Source: Candidatus Thermodiscus eudorianus
GTDB lineage: Archaea > Thermoproteota > Thermoprotei_A > Sulfolobales > Acidilobaceae
Assembly: GCA_015521085.1 (NCBI GenBank)
Contig: WAOW01000004.1
Coordinates: 62,001 to 126,000, forward strand
Length of the DNA: 64,000 nt
Direction: 5' to 3'
Position 1 is the stretch's first letter. Every line of letters begins with the position of its first letter. Shown one piece after another: positions 51,318 through 60,009 of the stretch. The position numbers and the translations under genes are program-made. A model generated the notes under the pieces. It was not told where the DNA came from. It saw nothing but the letters and a program-made list of their open reading frames with translations, and ran no database searches.

Positions 51318-52379
51318 CTAGCACTCTATACTATATGGTTCAACGACCCCCTCAGCAACCCTATCCAAGCCACTATACTTGCTGGGCAGGGGTTTGCCGG
51401 CAACGATATTCTCAACCAATAGCCTGGCTATTGAGGGGGCAAGGCTGATCCCCGCTCCATTAAACCCGGTCAAGGCATACACCGAGTCCCGGATCTCCGC
51501 CGCCAAGGGGAGCGAATCCCCAGTCGTTATACAGGGGGCCGACCATATCTGAACGATCCTGGACTCCCAGGCCTCGGGGACCCGGCTCGCATACTGTTCT
51601 AGCACCCTGTATGTATCCTCTGGGTCGGGCTTGAACCCCTCGAACGGATCATCTATCACGGCATTGGACCCGTCGCCTATGTTGAACCGGCTCCGGCTAA
51701 CTGGGACCAGGTAGTAGCCCAGGGAGTCGTCCTCGATAACCATCCCCGGGGTGGGTCCCTCTACACTGGCTAATTGGCAACGGTAGATTACTGTCGCCCC
51801 GGATACCTCGGGCAACAGCTGGGGCGTCCAGGGCCCAGCGGCTACGATAACCGGCCCCTCCAGCCTCTCCTCCCCGGCGTAGAGCCACGGGCCGCGTCTA
51901 ACCGCCCTGGACTCGTGTATCCTCACGCCCATACTGGTTAGAGTGGAGTAGAGGCTGTTTATGACCCAGCCAGTATCTACTATGAACGTCTTTATAACCG
52001 CGTAATAGTCTCCTCCGAGGTCGAAGTCAATCCCGAGATCTTCTATACCGGTTCTGGGCGGTGATAGGCCTAGCTTCCCATGTATCTCCATGATCCTCTC
52101 AGCGCACTCCCTGTTCTTGACGACCCATAGCGCGGGTTTCTCGACGATCCTCCCCTCGGATCCAGGCAGCCCCCTATAGAACTCATAGGTCTCGATGACA
52201 TGCCTCAATAGGTCCTCCTCGAATATAGTCACCAATATGCCAGCGCTCTTGCCAGAGGCACTATAGCCGGGGTACTCCATCTCGTATAGGTCGACGCTAA
52301 ACCCCTCTCGGGCCAGGAAGTACGCTGCAGAGAGCCCCGCAATGCCCCCGCCGACTACAGCCGCTTTCGCCAAAGGCAT
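51318..52379 (-). CDS. FAD-dependent oxidoreductase (DAO family)
   Basis: A 353-residue D-amino-acid-oxidase-type flavoprotein. The FAD motif is KAAVVGGGIAGLSAAYFLAREGFSVDLYEME near the start, followed by GYSASGKSAGILVTIFEEDLL, the middle substrate-binding sheet, and VYALTGFNGAGISLAPSIARLLVENI closing the site. It could oxidise an amine, glycine, proline or glycerol-3-phosphate type substrate. I take the ATG at 52379, with GGAGGAGG directly ahead; a TTG two codons later gives better spacing, and a longer upstream frame is unlikely. It lies between two surE genes. Confidence 0.85.
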   Translation of the reverse strand: MPLAKAAVVGGGIAGLSAAYFLAREGFSVDLYEMEYPGYSASGKSAGILVTIFEEDLLRHVIETYEFYRGLPGSEGRIVEKPALWVVKNRECAERIMEIHGKLGLSPPRTGIEDLGIDFDLGGDYYAVIKTFIVDTGWVINSLYSTLTSMGVRIHESRAVRRGPWLYAGEERLEGPVIVAAGPWTPQLLPEVSGATVIYRCQLASVEGPTPGMVIEDDSLGYYLVPVSRSRFNIGDGSNAVIDDPFEGFKPDPEDTYRVLEQYASRVPEAWESRIVQIWSAPCITTGDSLPLAAEIRDSVYALTGFNGAGISLAPSIARLLVENIVAGKPLPSKYSGLDRVAEGVVEPYSIEC

Positions 52380-52490: not shown

Positions 52491-53264
52491 TTGAAGGTAC
52501 TAGTCACCAACGACGACGGCATAGAGGCTCCAGGCATCTACAGCCTAGTCAAGGCGTTGAACAACGCAGGCCACACTGTATACGTGGCGGCCCCAAAGGA
52601 CCCCGCCAGTGGTATGGGCAAGGCGTTGAAGGTCAGGGCCAGGTATGGGGAGGCCAGGTACGAGGGCGCACGGAGAGCCTGGTGGGTCGAGTCAACCCCC
52701 GCGACGGCGGTCTACCTAGCCATAAACCTACTCGTCGACGAGGAGATAGACGCCGTTGTCTCCGGGGTCAACAGGGGGCCGAACATAGGGCTGGAAGACC
52801 TACTAACGAGCGGCACCATAGGAGCGGTCATGGAGGCGGCGCTCAACGGGCTGCCCGGCGTTGCGGTGAGCCTTGCCACGGACAAGGGAGTAGACCCGGG
52901 TGAATACGATCTAGCCTCGAACCTCGCAGCCAGGCTGGTCCCAATGCTAGCAGTACTCGACCCGGGCGAGTTCGTGAACCTCAACGTGCCCGAGAACCCC
53001 CGGGGCGTCATGGCGACACGCCTAGCGTGGAACAATTACCGGGTCAGGCTGAAGAGGGTAGACGGATTCGTGGCCCCCGAGGCGCACGGGTTCAGGGAGA
53101 GGTACTGGGATCTGGCCGAGGGGACCGACGTTTGGGCCGTGATGAACGACTACGTGAGCGTAACGGTCATAGACCTGAGGAACCTAACGGATAGCATCGT
53201 AGACCTGGAGAGGACCGGTGAAATAGCACGCAACCTAGGGCTACCCCGGAGGGGCCTCGGCTAG
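52491..53264 (+). CDS. SurE 5'/3'-nucleotidase, copy 2
   Basis: A 257-residue SurE family phosphatase: KVLVTNDDGIEAPGIYSLVKALNNAGHTVYVAAP, ESTPATAVYLAINLL, VVSGVNRGPNIGLEDLLTSGTIGAVMEAALNGLPGVAVSLA and VNLNVPEN. Start TTG at 52491. It diverges from the FAD oxidoreductase gene and shares moderate similarity with copy 1. The end overlaps the convergent LutB-like gene by 24 bases. Two SurE proteins may differ in nucleotide preference. Confidence 0.93.
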   Translation: MKVLVTNDDGIEAPGIYSLVKALNNAGHTVYVAAPKDPASGMGKALKVRARYGEARYEGARRAWWVESTPATAVYLAINLLVDEEIDAVVSGVNRGPNIGLEDLLTSGTIGAVMEAALNGLPGVAVSLATDKGVDPGEYDLASNLAARLVPMLAVLDPGEFVNLNVPENPRGVMATRLAWNNYRVRLKRVDGFVAPEAHGFRERYWDLAEGTDVWAVMNDYVSVTVIDLRNLTDSIVDLERTGEIARNLGLPRRGLG

Positions 53265-54455
53265 GAGGCCAGCGACGTAGTTCCTCCTGAGCCAGTGTAT
53301 TATCCTCGACAAGGGTATCTCCACGGGGCACACCTCATCGCACCTACCGCACTGGAGGCATAGGAGGCTGAGGGCCCCGGCCTCCTCCATGCTATGGGTT
53401 ATCGCAGTCCAGTTGATCCCCATGGGCCCGCCGTACACTGGGCCTCCCCAGACGTTGGCGGTGTGCCTCCACACCGGGCACTCCCACTGGCACCTGCCGC
53501 ATCTTATACACCTCAACTGTTCTCCGAGGAGGGTCCCTCTAGCCCTAGTCCTCCCATTGTCGACGAGAACCAGGTGCACCTCCCGGGGGCCGTGAGCGCC
53601 GTATACGCGCCTATGCTCTATGTCGGCGGTGCTGGAGGGCCCACTTATCACGTTAAGGTACGTGGGCGGGTATAGACCCGCATAGGCGGCCTGGACAATG
53701 GCCTGCTTGACCGCGGTTTCGAGGGTGTCGACCACCTTCTCAACGCCAGCGACAATTATGTGCCTCTCGGGGAGCCCGGTCACGAGCCGTATATTGCCCT
53801 CGTTCTCCACCAATACAACGCTAGCCGTGTCGGCGGCGATGGCATTGGCACCGCTTACACCATAGTCGGCTCTGGAGAACTTCTCCCTCAGGAACCCCCT
53901 AACCGCCGAGACTATGTCCTCGGGCCTGGGGTCCCTCGGCAGTTCCAGGCCTAGCTTCTCTCTAACCAGTTTAGAGGCTTTTTCAACGGTCAAGTGTATG
54001 GCGGGGGCCGTGGTGTGCATGGGCTTCGAGCCCTCAAGCTGTATCAGGAGCTGGCCCAGGTCCGTCTCCCACACCTCGTTGCCCTTCTCGGCCAGGTACT
54101 CCCTCAGGCCTATCTCTTCGGCGACCATGCTCTTCGAGAAGACCACTAGCTTGCCAGACCCCACGATGTCCCCTACTATCTCCCTGGCCTCCACCGCGTC
54201 CCCGGCAAGGTAGACCTTAACCCTATGCCTCTCCCCAGCCTTCACCAGCTCCTCTATCAACTCATCTAGCCGCTCAAGGCTACGCTTCCTAGCCTCCAGG
54301 ACCTCCTCGGCGAGCCTCCTAACATACTGGTAGGCCTCCAGTATGCGGGGGACCCTCTCCTCTGCGTGTACACTAGACTTCCACACGGCCTGCTGGAAGG
54401 ACTCGTCCCCCAGGACCCTATAGATCCTATCTACAACATCCTGTATGCCCGTCAA
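53241..54455 (-). CDS. LUD-domain iron-sulfur protein (LutB-like)
   Basis: A 404-residue protein related to the lactate utilisation LutB/YkgF group. Residues about 50-300 form a LUD domain (VVFSKSMVAEEIGLREYLAEKGNEVWETDLGQLLIQL; GVSGANAIAADTASVVLVENEGN). The C-terminus has two 4Fe-4S motifs, CIRCGRCQWECPVW and CLQCGRCDEVCPVEIP. It is the last gene of a four-gene unit with a flavin oxidase, a ferredoxin-like protein and a CCG-domain protein. Its TTG start overlaps the upstream stop as TTGA. Electrons from 2-hydroxyacids probably pass here. Confidence 0.88.
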   Translation of the reverse strand: MTGIQDVVDRIYRVLGDESFQQAVWKSSVHAEERVPRILEAYQYVRRLAEEVLEARKRSLERLDELIEELVKAGERHRVKVYLAGDAVEAREIVGDIVGSGKLVVFSKSMVAEEIGLREYLAEKGNEVWETDLGQLLIQLEGSKPMHTTAPAIHLTVEKASKLVREKLGLELPRDPRPEDIVSAVRGFLREKFSRADYGVSGANAIAADTASVVLVENEGNIRLVTGLPERHIIVAGVEKVVDTLETAVKQAIVQAAYAGLYPPTYLNVISGPSSTADIEHRRVYGAHGPREVHLVLVDNGRTRARGTLLGEQLRCIRCGRCQWECPVWRHTANVWGGPVYGGPMGINWTAITHSMEEAGALSLLCLQCGRCDEVCPVEIPLSRIIHWLRRNYVAGLLAEAPPG

Positions 54456-55429
54456 CCCCGCTCACCGGCTAACAGTAGCGATATATCGATTATCTCGGCA
54501 TCGTCCGCAACCCGTGACAGGTTGGCGTGGCATATAGGGCATAGGGTAACGATCCTCCTACCCCTCTCCCTCAACTCCCTGAACCGGGCCTCGGCTATCC
54601 TCCTAGAGAGCCTAGGCGCGATACTCTCGATAGGCCCCCCGCAGCAGTAGGTCATCCTCCCAGACCTCTTCGGCTCGACAACCCTGTAACCGGCGCCCGC
54701 GAGGAGCCTCCTCGGCTGGGCTATGATACCCAGGCCCCGCGCGTAGAGGCAGGGATCGTGTATAACGATATCGCCTCCTCCCCTCCTGGACGCGGGCTTG
54801 TAGCCTCTCTCATCCAGTACCTCAAGGTATGACTTGACCTCCAGGTCGAAGCCGTCGATATACTCTGGGTAGACTTCCCGTAGCACGTGCGTGGTGTGGG
54901 GGTCAACAGTCACTACCAGGGGGGCGCCGGTCCCCTTCAGCGCCTCGTAGACCCGCGTTGCATGCTCCCGGAAAACCTCTTCGAGGCCGAGATCGTAGAG
55001 TAGCACTCCACTGTACCCGTCTAGATCGGGTCTATAGGCTATCCTAACCCCGGCTTCGGCTAACAGCTCTACTATGGCCCTGAGGACCCTCCTAGAGTAT
55101 TCTACCTCGGCCTTGCTGGGCTTGGCGAAGACGCCTGCTAGATCCGTTAACTTCAGCCTCCTAGCGGCCCTCAGGAGGAGCCCTGAGGCCCGGGAGCCCT
55201 CAAGCCTCTCAAGGTACCTGACCATGGCGTTTATGTAGGGCATCAGCTGGTAGAGCCCGCCTGTGTAGAGGAGGGCGTCGCCCTCCCGGGGCAGGTCTAG
55301 GCCCTTGCTCCACTCATGTATGACTTCGGGCTTGACGGGGACCGGGAGGCCCCGTCTACGCGTCTCCTCGGCCATCATCAAGAGTATCTCTTTAACGTCA
55401 AGCAACCGAGACACCCTCCTAGAGTCCAC
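54452..55429 (-). CDS. CCG-domain (Cys-rich) redox protein
   Basis: A 325-residue protein with a C-terminal CCG domain: HDPCLYARGLG, TYCCGGPIESIAPRLSRRIAEARF and LCPICHANLSR. GlcF and heterodisulfide reductase B-type proteins have two such domains; the N-terminal half here keeps the fold but lacks the CCG cysteines. It may begin at GTG 55429 (overlapping the preceding gene by 11 bases) or at TTG 55405, which has GGAGGGTG upstream. With the small ferredoxin gene before it, it amounts to a split GlcF. Confidence 0.82.
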   Translation of the reverse strand: MDSRRVSRLLDVKEILLMMAEETRRRGLPVPVKPEVIHEWSKGLDLPREGDALLYTGGLYQLMPYINAMVRYLERLEGSRASGLLLRAARRLKLTDLAGVFAKPSKAEVEYSRRVLRAIVELLAEAGVRIAYRPDLDGYSGVLLYDLGLEEVFREHATRVYEALKGTGAPLVVTVDPHTTHVLREVYPEYIDGFDLEVKSYLEVLDERGYKPASRRGGGDIVIHDPCLYARGLGIIAQPRRLLAGAGYRVVEPKRSGRMTYCCGGPIESIAPRLSRRIAEARFRELRERGRRIVTLCPICHANLSRVADDAEIIDISLLLAGERG

Positions 55430-55715
55430 GGCTGTAGAGGGCCCTAGCAGCCCTCACGACGCCGACTATATCCAGGGAGGCCGGGCACTTCAAGTGGCAC
55501 GCCTCGCATAAGAGGCATGTATAGAGGCTGTTAATAGCCTCACCAGTATAGCCGGCCTCCCCCCGGGCTATGGCTAGGGCCAGGTTCACCCGGCCCCGGG
55601 GCCCATAACCCCTATGGGGGCCCAATGGTAGAGTGGGGCATAGGGCCTCGCAGAAGCCGCAGAACATGCACTTACCGGCCTCCGCCAGTATATACTCGCG
55701 GGGGTCCCTCTGCAA
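55419..55715 (-). CDS. 2x4Fe-4S ferredoxin-like protein (GlcF N-terminal part)
   Basis: A 98-residue protein with two clusters (CMFCGFCEALCPTLP and CLLCEACHLKCPASLDI), matching the N-terminal ferredoxin half of GlcF-type subunits. The start is TTG at 55715 with GGGGAGGGGTGG upstream, 21 bases after the flavin oxidase gene. It relays electrons between the flavoprotein and the CCG protein. Confidence 0.88.
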   Translation of the reverse strand: MQRDPREYILAEAGKCMFCGFCEALCPTLPLGPHRGYGPRGRVNLALAIARGEAGYTGEAINSLYTCLLCEACHLKCPASLDIVGVVRAARALYSRGL

Positions 55716-55736
55716 GCCGCCACCCCTCCCCGGGCC

Positions 55737-57152
55737 CTACACTACCTTGCCCGGGTTGAGTATGCCCTTCGGGTCGAATACCCTCTTCACGCCTCTCATC
55801 AGTTCCAGGAGCTTCTCACTCCCCCGGTGTCTAGCCTCCAATTCCAAGCCCTCCTTCTTGAGGGTCCCTATGCCGTGCTCCGCGCTCACGCTACCGCCAA
55901 GCCTTAGGGCTAGTCTCATGACCTCGTGGTACCACTCCTCAACCCTCCTACGCTCCTCCGAATCCCTGGGGTCGAATCCCACGGCCGGGTGCAGGTTCCC
56001 ATCGCCTATGTGGCCCCCGAGCATCATGGTGAACCCGTACCTCTTCGATATCTCCACGAGGCCCTCCACGGCCTCCACCAGCCTGCTGGGCGGCACCACG
56101 ATATCCTCTATGAGGACCATGACCTTCCCGGCCCCGCCCAGCCTCTCACGGGTATAGTGTACCTGGGCGGTGAACAGGTTCTTCCTGATCGAGAAGAGGC
56201 CCTTCTCCAACGCCTCTTCCGTGGTCCAGGCCCTATAGAGTGTATGGGCCCCATTGTCAACCGCTATAGAGGAGAGCCAGTCGAGCATTCGACCAGCCGC
56301 CTCCCTATAGACGTCGACGCCGACCAGCAGCATGTGGCCCCTGGCATCCAACTCTACCCCGGCCAGGCGCTTGGCCCTCTCAACGGTCTCAGCCTCCATG
56401 AACTCTGCTATGTAGGGCGTCACCCTACCCTGCTTGATCTCGATGACGGTCTGGGCCAGGTCTTCGAGCCTCTCGTAGAACGCCAGTATGTAGACGACCT
56501 GCTCTGGTATGGGGGTGATCCTTAGCACCGCCTCGGTGACGAGGCCCAGGGTCCCCTCGCTACCCACGATAAGCCGGGTCAGGTCATAGCCCTGCCTGCA
56601 CTTCACAGTTCTACAGCCGACGCGTACCAGGCTCGCGTCCTCGTCGGCCACCACGAGTTCGAGGCCGAGGACCCAGTCCCTCATAGTACCATACTTGGCC
56701 CCCCTCATGCCACCGGCTCCATTATTTATGGCTCCTCCAACCGTGGCTACTGCACTGCTAGCCGGGTCCACGGGGAACATGTAGCCGTAGCTGGCTAGGG
56801 CGTTGTTCAGCTCGTCAAGCCTCAAGCCGGGCTCGACCACGACGGTCCCATCTACTATATTCACCTCGCGTAGCCTCCTCATCCTCTCAAAGCTAACGAC
56901 GACCCCGCCCTCCACGGGGTACGCGTTGCCCGACAGGCTGGTCGCACTGCCCTGGGGATAGACGGGGAACTCCATTTTATAGGCGAGCCGTACTAGCTTC
57001 CTAACGTCGCCGGCGTCCTCGGGGAAGACAACGGCCTCGACGCCCTCGGCTTCAAGACCGCTGGGCTCCCTAGTGTAGAGGCGTATAATCCCTGGATCAT
57101 CGATAACCTTGTCCCTACCCAGTGCTCCGCGTAGCTTCGAGGCGATACCCAA
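55737..57152 (-). CDS. FAD-linked D-lactate/glycolate dehydrogenase (GlcD family)
   Basis: A 471-residue FAD-binding oxidase of the GlcD/D-lactate dehydrogenase family. The PCMH-type domain has VRKLVRLAYKMEFPVYPQGSATSLSGNAYPVEGGVVVSFERM and VDPASSAVATVGGAINNGAGGMRGAKYGTMRDWVLGLELV. The C-terminal cap carries GHIGDGNLHPAVGFD and VSAEHGIGTLKKEGLE, metal/substrate ligands in D-2-hydroxyacid dehydrogenases. It heads the four-gene redox operon and likely feeds electrons to the Fe-S proteins. The start is TTG at 57152. Substrate inferred (D-lactate or glycolate). Confidence 0.92.
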   Translation of the reverse strand: MGIASKLRGALGRDKVIDDPGIIRLYTREPSGLEAEGVEAVVFPEDAGDVRKLVRLAYKMEFPVYPQGSATSLSGNAYPVEGGVVVSFERMRRLREVNIVDGTVVVEPGLRLDELNNALASYGYMFPVDPASSAVATVGGAINNGAGGMRGAKYGTMRDWVLGLELVVADEDASLVRVGCRTVKCRQGYDLTRLIVGSEGTLGLVTEAVLRITPIPEQVVYILAFYERLEDLAQTVIEIKQGRVTPYIAEFMEAETVERAKRLAGVELDARGHMLLVGVDVYREAAGRMLDWLSSIAVDNGAHTLYRAWTTEEALEKGLFSIRKNLFTAQVHYTRERLGGAGKVMVLIEDIVVPPSRLVEAVEGLVEISKRYGFTMMLGGHIGDGNLHPAVGFDPRDSEERRRVEEWYHEVMRLALRLGGSVSAEHGIGTLKKEGLELEARHRGSEKLLELMRGVKRVFDPKGILNPGKVV

Positions 57153-57296
57153 GCACAGGCACCTACTAGCATCTAAGCCCAGCCAGCGCTATAATACGGT
57201 TGGACACGGACCTTAGGCGTACACGCCAGATTTTACCGTCGCGTTCAGCCATACAGCGGGGGTCCCGCTAGGGGCCTCCTTGGAGGGTGGCCTGCT

Positions 57297-58160
57297 GTGG
57301 ACAGGGACGTGCTCGTGTCGAGGATATCTGAGGCTATGGTGTCCTGCATAGACCCGCCGCCGAGCGACGGGATCCTAGTCATATACGACGGCGGTAGCAG
57401 TAATGTGGCGAGCGTCATAGTGGATGCGGCCAAGGCACTAGGCGTCGAGTCGCACCAAGTGGATCTAGACACGTATGGGAGGCCACTGGAGAGGGTCCCC
57501 CAGGGGCTCCAGGACCTACTGGAAGGAACCAGGTTCGACGCCAGCTTCTACGTGGCAGGGGTGAAGCCAGGCGAGCTCAGCTTCCGGAGCAAGCTCATCG
57601 AAGCCCCAACGGGCAAAGGCGCTAGCCACGTGCACATGCCCAAAGCCACCATGGATATACTTAGCAAGGTAAGGGACTGCGGCTCGATCAGGAAAGTAAT
57701 CCACGACATCCACCAGGCCCTAAAGGACGCGTCGAAGGTCAGGGTCACATCCAAGGCGGGGACCGACGTCACCCTAGAGGTCGGATCCTACAGGTGGGTT
57801 GTCGATGACGGGGTCATACCCCGGGGAGAGTGGGGTAACTGGCCTCCGGGAGAGGTCTACACCACGCCCTCCAATGCCGAGGGCGTGATAGTTGTCGACG
57901 GCGTCATAGGGGACTACTTCTCGATGAAATACGGCCTGCTCCGGGAAAGGGTCATGATAGAGGTGTCCAGGGGCCGGGTCGAGAGAGTCGAGGGAGGGAG
58001 GATAGCGGCTGAGCTAGAAGAATACCTAGCCGCCCATGACTGCGGGCTCATGGTAGGCGAGCTGGGGATCGGAGGAAACCCATACATCGAGAGGCCCATA
58101 GGGAACATGCTCCACGACGAGAAAATGCCGGGGGCCCATATCGCCTTCGGCGACCCCTAG
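57297..58160 (+). CDS. M29-like aminopeptidase, ends early through a -1 frame change
   Basis: A 287-codon frame for an archaeal M29-like (aminopeptidase T-related) protein: WGNWPPGEVYTTPSNAEGVIVVDG, VGELGIGGNPYIERPIGNMLHDEK and GAHIAFGDP, all typical metal-binding segments of the family. It stops right after GAHIAFGDP, where relatives continue with a Gly-rich and His-Asp segment. That missing tail occurs in the -1 frame starting at 58157. The stop follows a CCCC run (58154-58157) on which a tRNA-Pro could slip back by one base with full re-pairing. Either one C has been lost, the sequence has an error, or a programmed -1 shift is used. GGAGGGTGG precedes the GTG start. Confidence 0.8.
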   Translation: MDRDVLVSRISEAMVSCIDPPPSDGILVIYDGGSSNVASVIVDAAKALGVESHQVDLDTYGRPLERVPQGLQDLLEGTRFDASFYVAGVKPGELSFRSKLIEAPTGKGASHVHMPKATMDILSKVRDCGSIRKVIHDIHQALKDASKVRVTSKAGTDVTLEVGSYRWVVDDGVIPRGEWGNWPPGEVYTTPSNAEGVIVVDGVIGDYFSMKYGLLRERVMIEVSRGRVERVEGGRIAAELEEYLAAHDCGLMVGELGIGGNPYIERPIGNMLHDEKMPGAHIAFGDP

Positions 58161-58276
58161 GCGGCAGGACCGGGGCCGGGTGGAAGTGCCCGATACACGT
58201 GGACGTGCTCCCGCTCAAAACCACCGTGATTGTAGGGGGCCAGGTCCTGGTCAGGGATGGAGTGATCAACCTATAA
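58157..58276 (+). pseudogene. Displaced C-terminal segment of the M29-like gene
   Basis: From CTA at 58157 the -1 frame encodes 39 residues (LGGRTGAGWKCPIHVDVLPL, then TTVIVGGQVLVRDGVINL and a stop at 58274-58276). This is the expected family C-terminus, with the HxD metal ligands and the final VDG-like turn. It has no start codon of its own, so it is translated only through a frame change or is dead. Confidence 0.75.
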
Positions 58277-58368
58277 CCCCCGGAGGGTCCCTCCACACAA
58301 GCCCCCCTTCCGGCACAGGCTCTATAATAGAGGCTGGAGGGGGACGGTATGGGGGGAGGTAGCGCGTA

Positions 58369-60009
58369 GTGATAAGACGGATACTGGAGCGGATAGACGG
58401 TAGGGGGTACAAGGCCTACAAGGATCTCGCCGGGGCCAGGGAAGAGGTCGACGGCCACCTGGTAGTGGTTGACAGGGTACAGGGAGACCCCTTCGCTCCC
58501 CCCAGCATTATACGTGTAGAGACTCGGGTCAGGATCCCCAGGGGCCTGGAAAGCTACCCGGTACCGGTCGAGGACTTCCTACTACGACGGGCCCACAGGA
58601 TCGCTGGCAGGTATTCCATGAGGGGCGCTGGCGAGGGGCACAGCGGACTCTTGAGGGTCCCCCGGCCGGGCCCCGTCATACTGCGCAGGAGCGCCGTCCA
58701 CCTAGGCAAGACCCCGGGAGGCTATAGGCTGACCCTGAGGCTCTGGCTCGGCCTACCCTCTAGGAGGAGGCGTGTCCTGGGAGGAGTGGCGGGCGAGCTC
58801 CTGCTTGAGAGGGTCCCTCGCCTCGTTGACGAGGTCGTGAGGGCCCTAGGGGACCCCCGGCTCCGCCCTCACGTCGACGCCTGGCGGGAGCAGGAGTATA
58901 TCCGGGGCCTGCTGGAGCCTCGGGGGCTCGTGTCCTTTGTAGGAGACGGCAGTATCCTTCCGAGGGCGTGTGGGGGGTGCGAGGAGCCCCTCCGGGATGC
59001 GGTCCCCTTCGAGTCTCCCCCGAGCCTGCGGGTCGAGTTCGAGCTACCCACTGGCAGGGTTGTCAGTGGCATGGGCTTGAGGACCGGGCTCACCCTGATA
59101 GCGGGCCCGGCCTTCTATGGCAAGACTACCCTGCTGGAGGCGATCGCCCACGGCGTCTGGAACCATGTGCCAGGCGATGGCAGGGAGCTAGTCGTGACCC
59201 GTAGGGATGCGGTCTGGATTCAGAGCGAGAACGGCCGGTGGGTCTCGTGCGTCGACATGGGGCCCTGGGTGGAGCACCTCCCCGGCCTGGAGGACCCTGG
59301 CTGTTGGAGCACTAGCGATGCCAGCGGTGCCACGAGTGCTATAGCGAGCGTGCAGGAGGCTATGGAGGCCGGGGCTAAGGTGTTGCTTATAGACGAGGAC
59401 TGGACCGCGACTAACTTCATACACAGGGATAGGTGGACTGAGGAGGTCACGGGTAAGAGGACGCTCCTCTCGATAAGCGACCTCGCCCCAGCCCTGAAGG
59501 AGAAGGGGGTGAGCGTGGTCATAGTGGCTAGCGGCAGTATAGCACTGCTCCAGGCCGCCGATACCGTTGTTGTAATGGACGAGTACAGGGCGAGGGACGC
59601 CACCGGGTACGCGTTGAAGGCCAGGGAGAGCCTAGCCGCTCTGGACGGCGGGGAGCGGGTAGAGTACAGGATGCCGAGGGGGAGGAGGCTTGTGAAGCCC
59701 CTCAGGCTGGAGAAGCCCAAGCTACGGGGGACCCTCCTTGAGGCGAGGAACCTGAGGGACAGGGTCGACTTGTCAGGGGCGACGCAGTTGGAGGAAGAGG
59801 GTCAAGCCTCCACAGTGGTGGCGGGGGCTGAGGCGGTCCTCTCCAAGACGGGTCCTCTCGTGTCGTTGGCCAGGTCTGTGGCTGACGCAATGGCCCGGGG
59901 GGATTGGGGTGTTGTGCAGAGGACCCCGGGGCCGGGTCTTGCGGAGGTCCGCTGGCTCGACATACTCTACCTCGTCAACAGGGTTCCAGGCCTCCACGTG
60001 GTGCATTAG
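58369..60009 (+). CDS. ABC-class ATPase (PF09818 family)
   Basis: A 546-residue protein that I recognise as the ABC_ATPase family, which is widespread in bacteria and archaea but uncharacterised; a trypanosome relative works in RNA editing. The N-terminal region (about 1-230) is basic. The ATPase core has Walker A GPAFYGKTTLLEAI, a signature-like segment SDASGATSAIASVQEA, and Walker B AKVLLIDEDWTATNFIHRD, with sensor VVIVASGSIALLQAADTVVVMDEYRAR. The start is GTG at 58369. It precedes topoisomerase VI B by 62 bases on the same strand. Confidence 0.85.
   Translation: MIRRILERIDGRGYKAYKDLAGAREEVDGHLVVVDRVQGDPFAPPSIIRVETRVRIPRGLESYPVPVEDFLLRRAHRIAGRYSMRGAGEGHSGLLRVPRPGPVILRRSAVHLGKTPGGYRLTLRLWLGLPSRRRRVLGGVAGELLLERVPRLVDEVVRALGDPRLRPHVDAWREQEYIRGLLEPRGLVSFVGDGSILPRACGGCEEPLRDAVPFESPPSLRVEFELPTGRVVSGMGLRTGLTLIAGPAFYGKTTLLEAIAHGVWNHVPGDGRELVVTRRDAVWIQSENGRWVSCVDMGPWVEHLPGLEDPGCWSTSDASGATSAIASVQEAMEAGAKVLLIDEDWTATNFIHRDRWTEEVTGKRTLLSISDLAPALKEKGVSVVIVASGSIALLQAADTVVVMDEYRARDATGYALKARESLAALDGGERVEYRMPRGRRLVKPLRLEKPKLRGTLLEARNLRDRVDLSGATQLEEEGQASTVVAGAEAVLSKTGPLVSLARSVADAMARGDWGVVQRTPGPGLAEVRWLDILYLVNRVPGLHVVH

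Follow-up and report, generated by a model that had tools for sequence, protein, structure and literature searches.

The question raised by this locus is why the reading frame of a metalloenzyme gene, for which all parts of the coding sequence seem to be present, should change at a run of four cytosines. The window, i.e., the whole stretch of 64,000 nucleotides that was analysed, belongs to a 1.52 Mb draft genome of 10 contigs. On its plus strand, an ORF at positions 57297-58160 begins with a GTG start codon, comprises 287 amino acids (287 codons, 57297..58157) and ends with ...GAHIAFGDP, followed by the stop codon TAG at 58158..58160. The CCCC run is located at 58154..58157; it consists of the last 0-frame codon CCC (58155-58157) and of the C of the GAC codon before it. 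The missing C-terminus (39 amino acids, LGGRTGAGWKCPIHVDVLPL...) is encoded in the -1 frame from position 58157, where CTA GGC GGC AGG... is translated as LGGRTGAGWKCPIHVDVLPLKTTVIVGGQVLVRDGVINL; the 39 codons together with the stop codon TAA (58274-58276) occupy 58157..58276. An open stretch of the -1 frame extends from 58040 to 58276 and overlaps frame 0 by 121 nt, and a shift at the C run is the only one within this overlap that matches the sequence of the relatives. Since the four close relatives L031-L034, which are 51-53% identical to the broken gene, run on unbroken as GDP-L-G-x-x-T-G-A and end at the matching point, the 0-frame part and the tail are one gene with an exact junction. When the two frames are joined, 0 residues are lost or gained against these relatives (GDP, continued across the junction by LGxxTGAxW). 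The original prediction of a frame ending at GAHIAFGDP-stop, with the C-terminus in the -1 frame from 58157, is thus borne out by the ORF, the codon scores and the alignment of the relatives, while its estimate of about 325 residues for the full-length product was corrected to a predicted 326.

The tail of 39 codons is genuine coding sequence, as is clear from its codon usage and its similarity to relatives. Scored with the genome's own codon model, it reaches +0.48 bits/codon in the -1 frame, compared with +0.50 for the N-terminal part, while the values for the tail in frame 0 and in the +1 frame are -0.95 and -0.46 bits/codon, respectively. Its identity to the relatives over the aligned positions is 49-59% (N-terminal part, 50-52%), and most of the differences are found at third positions. 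The remaining coding sequence is intact, as had been proposed. The intact relative L032 is as distant from the other family members as the broken gene is. At sites that are invariant in the other members, the N-terminal part of the broken gene is changed in 23 of 117 cases and that of L032 in 25 of 119; in the tail, the count is 4 of 18 for both genes. Because such changes are no commoner than in an equally distant intact gene, any inactivation would have to be recent; given the absence of decay, it must be either recent or not real.

Concerning the nature of the encoded protein, the 0-frame part matches the Pfam family PF02073 (M29) with 34.7 bits against a curated cut-off of 27 (E=1.1e-8); a match to the family was likewise obtained with the four relatives. 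A profile of the intact relatives matched 7cn3 (NicX, a 2,5-dihydroxypyridine dioxygenase) as the only solved structure (E=4.1e-8), and the predicted structure of an intact relative, which is of moderate confidence (mean pLDDT 68.7), gave Foldseek matches to the M29 aminopeptidases PepS, AmpS and AmpT with E values of 5.6e-16 to 8.3e-14; NicX was also matched by this fold. Alignment with canonical M29 proteins places the metal-ligand positions of the EEHYHD motif (PMC7023490) on both sides of the junction, as originally predicted: E186 (57852-57854), E255 (58059-58061) and H281 (58137-58139) in the 0 frame, H301 (58196-58198) and D303 (58202-58204) in the tail. The motif is incomplete, however, as the active-site tyrosine, seven residues past the histidine, is replaced by leucine in the broken gene (in its -1 frame) and in the four close relatives. 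The protein is therefore M29-like, in agreement with a match above the cut-off, but without the M29 tyrosine. It further differs from AmpS, AmpT and PepS in that members of this family are shorter (324-343 amino acids versus about 410) and in the placement of the last two ligands, which in this genome lie outside the 0 frame. With NicX, the family shares the fold match and the C-terminal H-x-D (H318 and D320 in NicX), albeit at low identity over a partial alignment; this likeness is one of sequence and fold. Together, L031-L034 make up a small subfamily that combines the M29 fold with leucine in place of the active-site tyrosine and that is found in few Acidilobaceae genomes.

Among 214 genomes of the order surveyed with a cut-off of E<=1e-25, the family is present in 13. 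None of the other family-bearing genomes (12 of 12) contains an internal stop, making the TAG at 58158..58160 the sole stop inside the family among the 13 genomes. Lack of the C-terminal segment in relatives would have spoken against the original prediction; every relative has it, uninterrupted (12/12). The junction was read in 10 of the other members, and each of these has kept the H-x-D of the tail. The named matches are Acidilobaceae or Desulfurococcales MAGs, and no viral relatives were found. The gene is flanked by a divergent FAD-linked oxidase gene (55737-57152, minus strand) and by an ABC-class ATPase gene (from 58369, plus strand). In the sister genomes G002 and G001, these two genes adjoin with a short gap and the M29 gene is absent, nor was it found in other genomes of the same genus. 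The M29-like gene is accessory, either acquired here or lost from the sister species, which would make its inactivation tolerable. The FAD-linked oxidase gene is part of a four-gene cluster on the minus strand (53241-57152), together with genes for a small Fe-S protein, a CCG-domain protein and a LUD-domain/4Fe-4S protein; the cluster resembles a lactate or glycolate oxidation operon and is syntenic in G002.

The interpretation we favour, somewhat ahead of even odds, is a recent inactivating one-base frameshift in the short C run of an accessory M29-like metalloenzyme gene, and we infer that the break lies in the DNA of the organism. The loss of one base from the run would have broken the frame; the ribosome would read up to the TAG and release a protein of 287 amino acids without the C-terminal H-x-D pair. 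In the M29 enzyme AmpS, the second metal is held by H381 and D383, and the activity of LmAmpII is abolished by mutation of the tested residues of the EEHYHD motif (PMC7023490). In NicX, the H-x-D pair helps to hold the iron, and the mutants H318A and D320A are dead (PMC7910607). As the H-x-D ligands of both the M29 aminopeptidases and NicX correspond to positions in the unread tail, the 287-amino acid product, missing the ligands of the second metal or of the iron, respectively, should be inactive in the manner of either enzyme. The break is shared by no homologue and, as judged from the alignment, would remove residues that are essential according to PMC7023490; both features are those of a disrupted gene. 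The apparent slip site would be the leftover of a C run that has lost a base.

Second to mutation, and a possibility to which we assign about one chance in three in words of judgement rather than of computation (the same applies to the weight given to mutation), stands one isolated error in the C run, made in sequencing or in the consensus, with the gene intact in the organism. Errors of this kind classically concern one base of a homopolymer, the assembly is a draft in 10 contigs, and the frame is intact on both sides of the junction, with normal codon usage and no relaxation. The C run is short, however, and this assembly shows few frame breaks. When 838 kb, or about 55% of the genome, was compared by blastx with G016, a complete genome of the family (1,669,696 bp), and with part of G002, four candidates passed the filters. 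On inspection, neighbouring genes accounted for two of these (a pair of ABC ATPases and a pair of CBS-domain proteins), a third proved to be a short segment with matches on both strands, and the fourth was a genuine frame break within a PIN-domain gene. Over the 569,513 bp covered by conserved blocks, this leaves one clear break. When single-base deletions were planted as a control, the survey recovered 62% of them overall, but just 2-25% of those lying within 120 nt of the edge of a block, which means that breaks near gene ends, such as that of the M29-like gene, are undercounted. Frame breaks amount to a few per genome in this assembly. At about one per 0.57 Mb of conserved sequence and 62% sensitivity, this is unlike assemblies with systematic homopolymer errors, so that a generally error-prone assembly is unlikely, and systematic assembly error was rejected as the main cause on the basis of that rate. 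Moreover, both clear breaks, in the M29-like and the PIN-domain gene, affect genes of a dispensable type, which fits mutation better, although two cases are few. The PIN-domain gene lies outside the window, on contig C4 of G000 at about 258,123-258,541 (C4b 196123-196541), and its N- and C-terminal parts match a single relative protein in different frames. An ab initio scan of codon usage revealed two more ORF ends, both on the minus strand (G000 C5, about 230,132, and window position 51,320), at which the coding signal continues in the +1 frame without a nearby start codon; each may represent either a further frame break or an overlap of two genes.

Much less probable, at roughly one chance in eleven, is programmed -1 frameshifting, in which the proline tRNA on CCC in the P-site would slip back by one base, with TAG in the A-site, so that a fraction of the ribosomes would make the 326-amino acid enzyme. 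The junction C-C-C-C-T-A-G is as originally described, in that perfect re-pairing on CCC enters the correct frame and yields exactly the sequence of the relatives; the tail is also free of relaxation, and slippage confined to the P-site and in need of no stimulator has been described for an empty A-site (PMC8211752). The slippery run is not independent evidence, however, because it would arise automatically wherever a C run had lost a base. By the definition in PMC8211752, GA-C-CCC-TAG contains no X-XXY-YYZ heptamer, as re-pairing is confined to the P-site tRNA and CTA in place of TAG violates the YYZ rule. A stimulatory structure would be expected 5-9 nt downstream of the slip site; the RNA beyond or around the junction is no more stable than shuffled sequences (z = 0.36 for 58158-58257, 0.45 for 58163-58212 and -0.39 for 58100-58260, in a model that does not include pseudoknots), and no Rfam families were found at 57100-58500 and no tRNA in the whole window. 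Furthermore, of the 646 conserved genes in the 838 kb surveyed, 6 likewise terminate in CCCC-stop, and a conserved -1 extension was flagged in none of these. In the relatives, the slip site is missing or unused: the junction codons are CCG CTC, CCT CTG or CCT TTG, and in one case CCC CTG, which is read in frame. Accordingly, the arrangement is conserved in none of the 12 other family members of the order.

Conservation in relatives is common for programmed -1 frameshifts, but not universal. It is lacking for the Saccharolobus solfataricus gene fucA1, the only case demonstrated in Archaea (PMC8211752), as most relatives carry an intact gene; a lack of conservation would therefore, by itself, be compatible with recoding. 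Like fucA1, the M29-like gene encodes an enzyme in two overlapping parts whose frames are offset by -1, and it has intact relatives. While fucA1 possesses the A-AAA-AAT site, tandem rare codons and a stem-loop, the M29-like gene has C-CCC immediately followed by TAG and no structure beyond that of shuffles. That it might be, after fucA1, a second cellular gene of Archaea to depend on -1 frameshifting for its expression, through a bare P-site slip of the proline tRNA on C-CCC before a stop and with no stimulatory structure, is slightly less probable still. Thus, among the three causes originally considered, the programmed one is possible but unsupported by heptamer, structure or a conserved slip site, whereas recent mutation or error accounts for everything observed. 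That the truncated 287-amino acid protein is itself useful in a new, non-catalytic role is very improbable: the 0 frame is a clean ORF, but two metal ligands conserved in the family are missing, and the tail, although unread, still gives the appearance of selection at the protein level.

If recoding were true, -1 frameshifting would have been shown for no more than two cellular genes of Archaea, and the present case would be of the simplest kind. Recent mutation, the preferred reading, carries a caution instead: a slippery-looking run is left behind when a homopolymer loses a base, and its presence where a frame is broken is, by itself, no evidence of recoding. The M29-fold subfamily lacking the tyrosine, present in a few Acidilobaceae, represents a small, uncharacterised group of enzymes.
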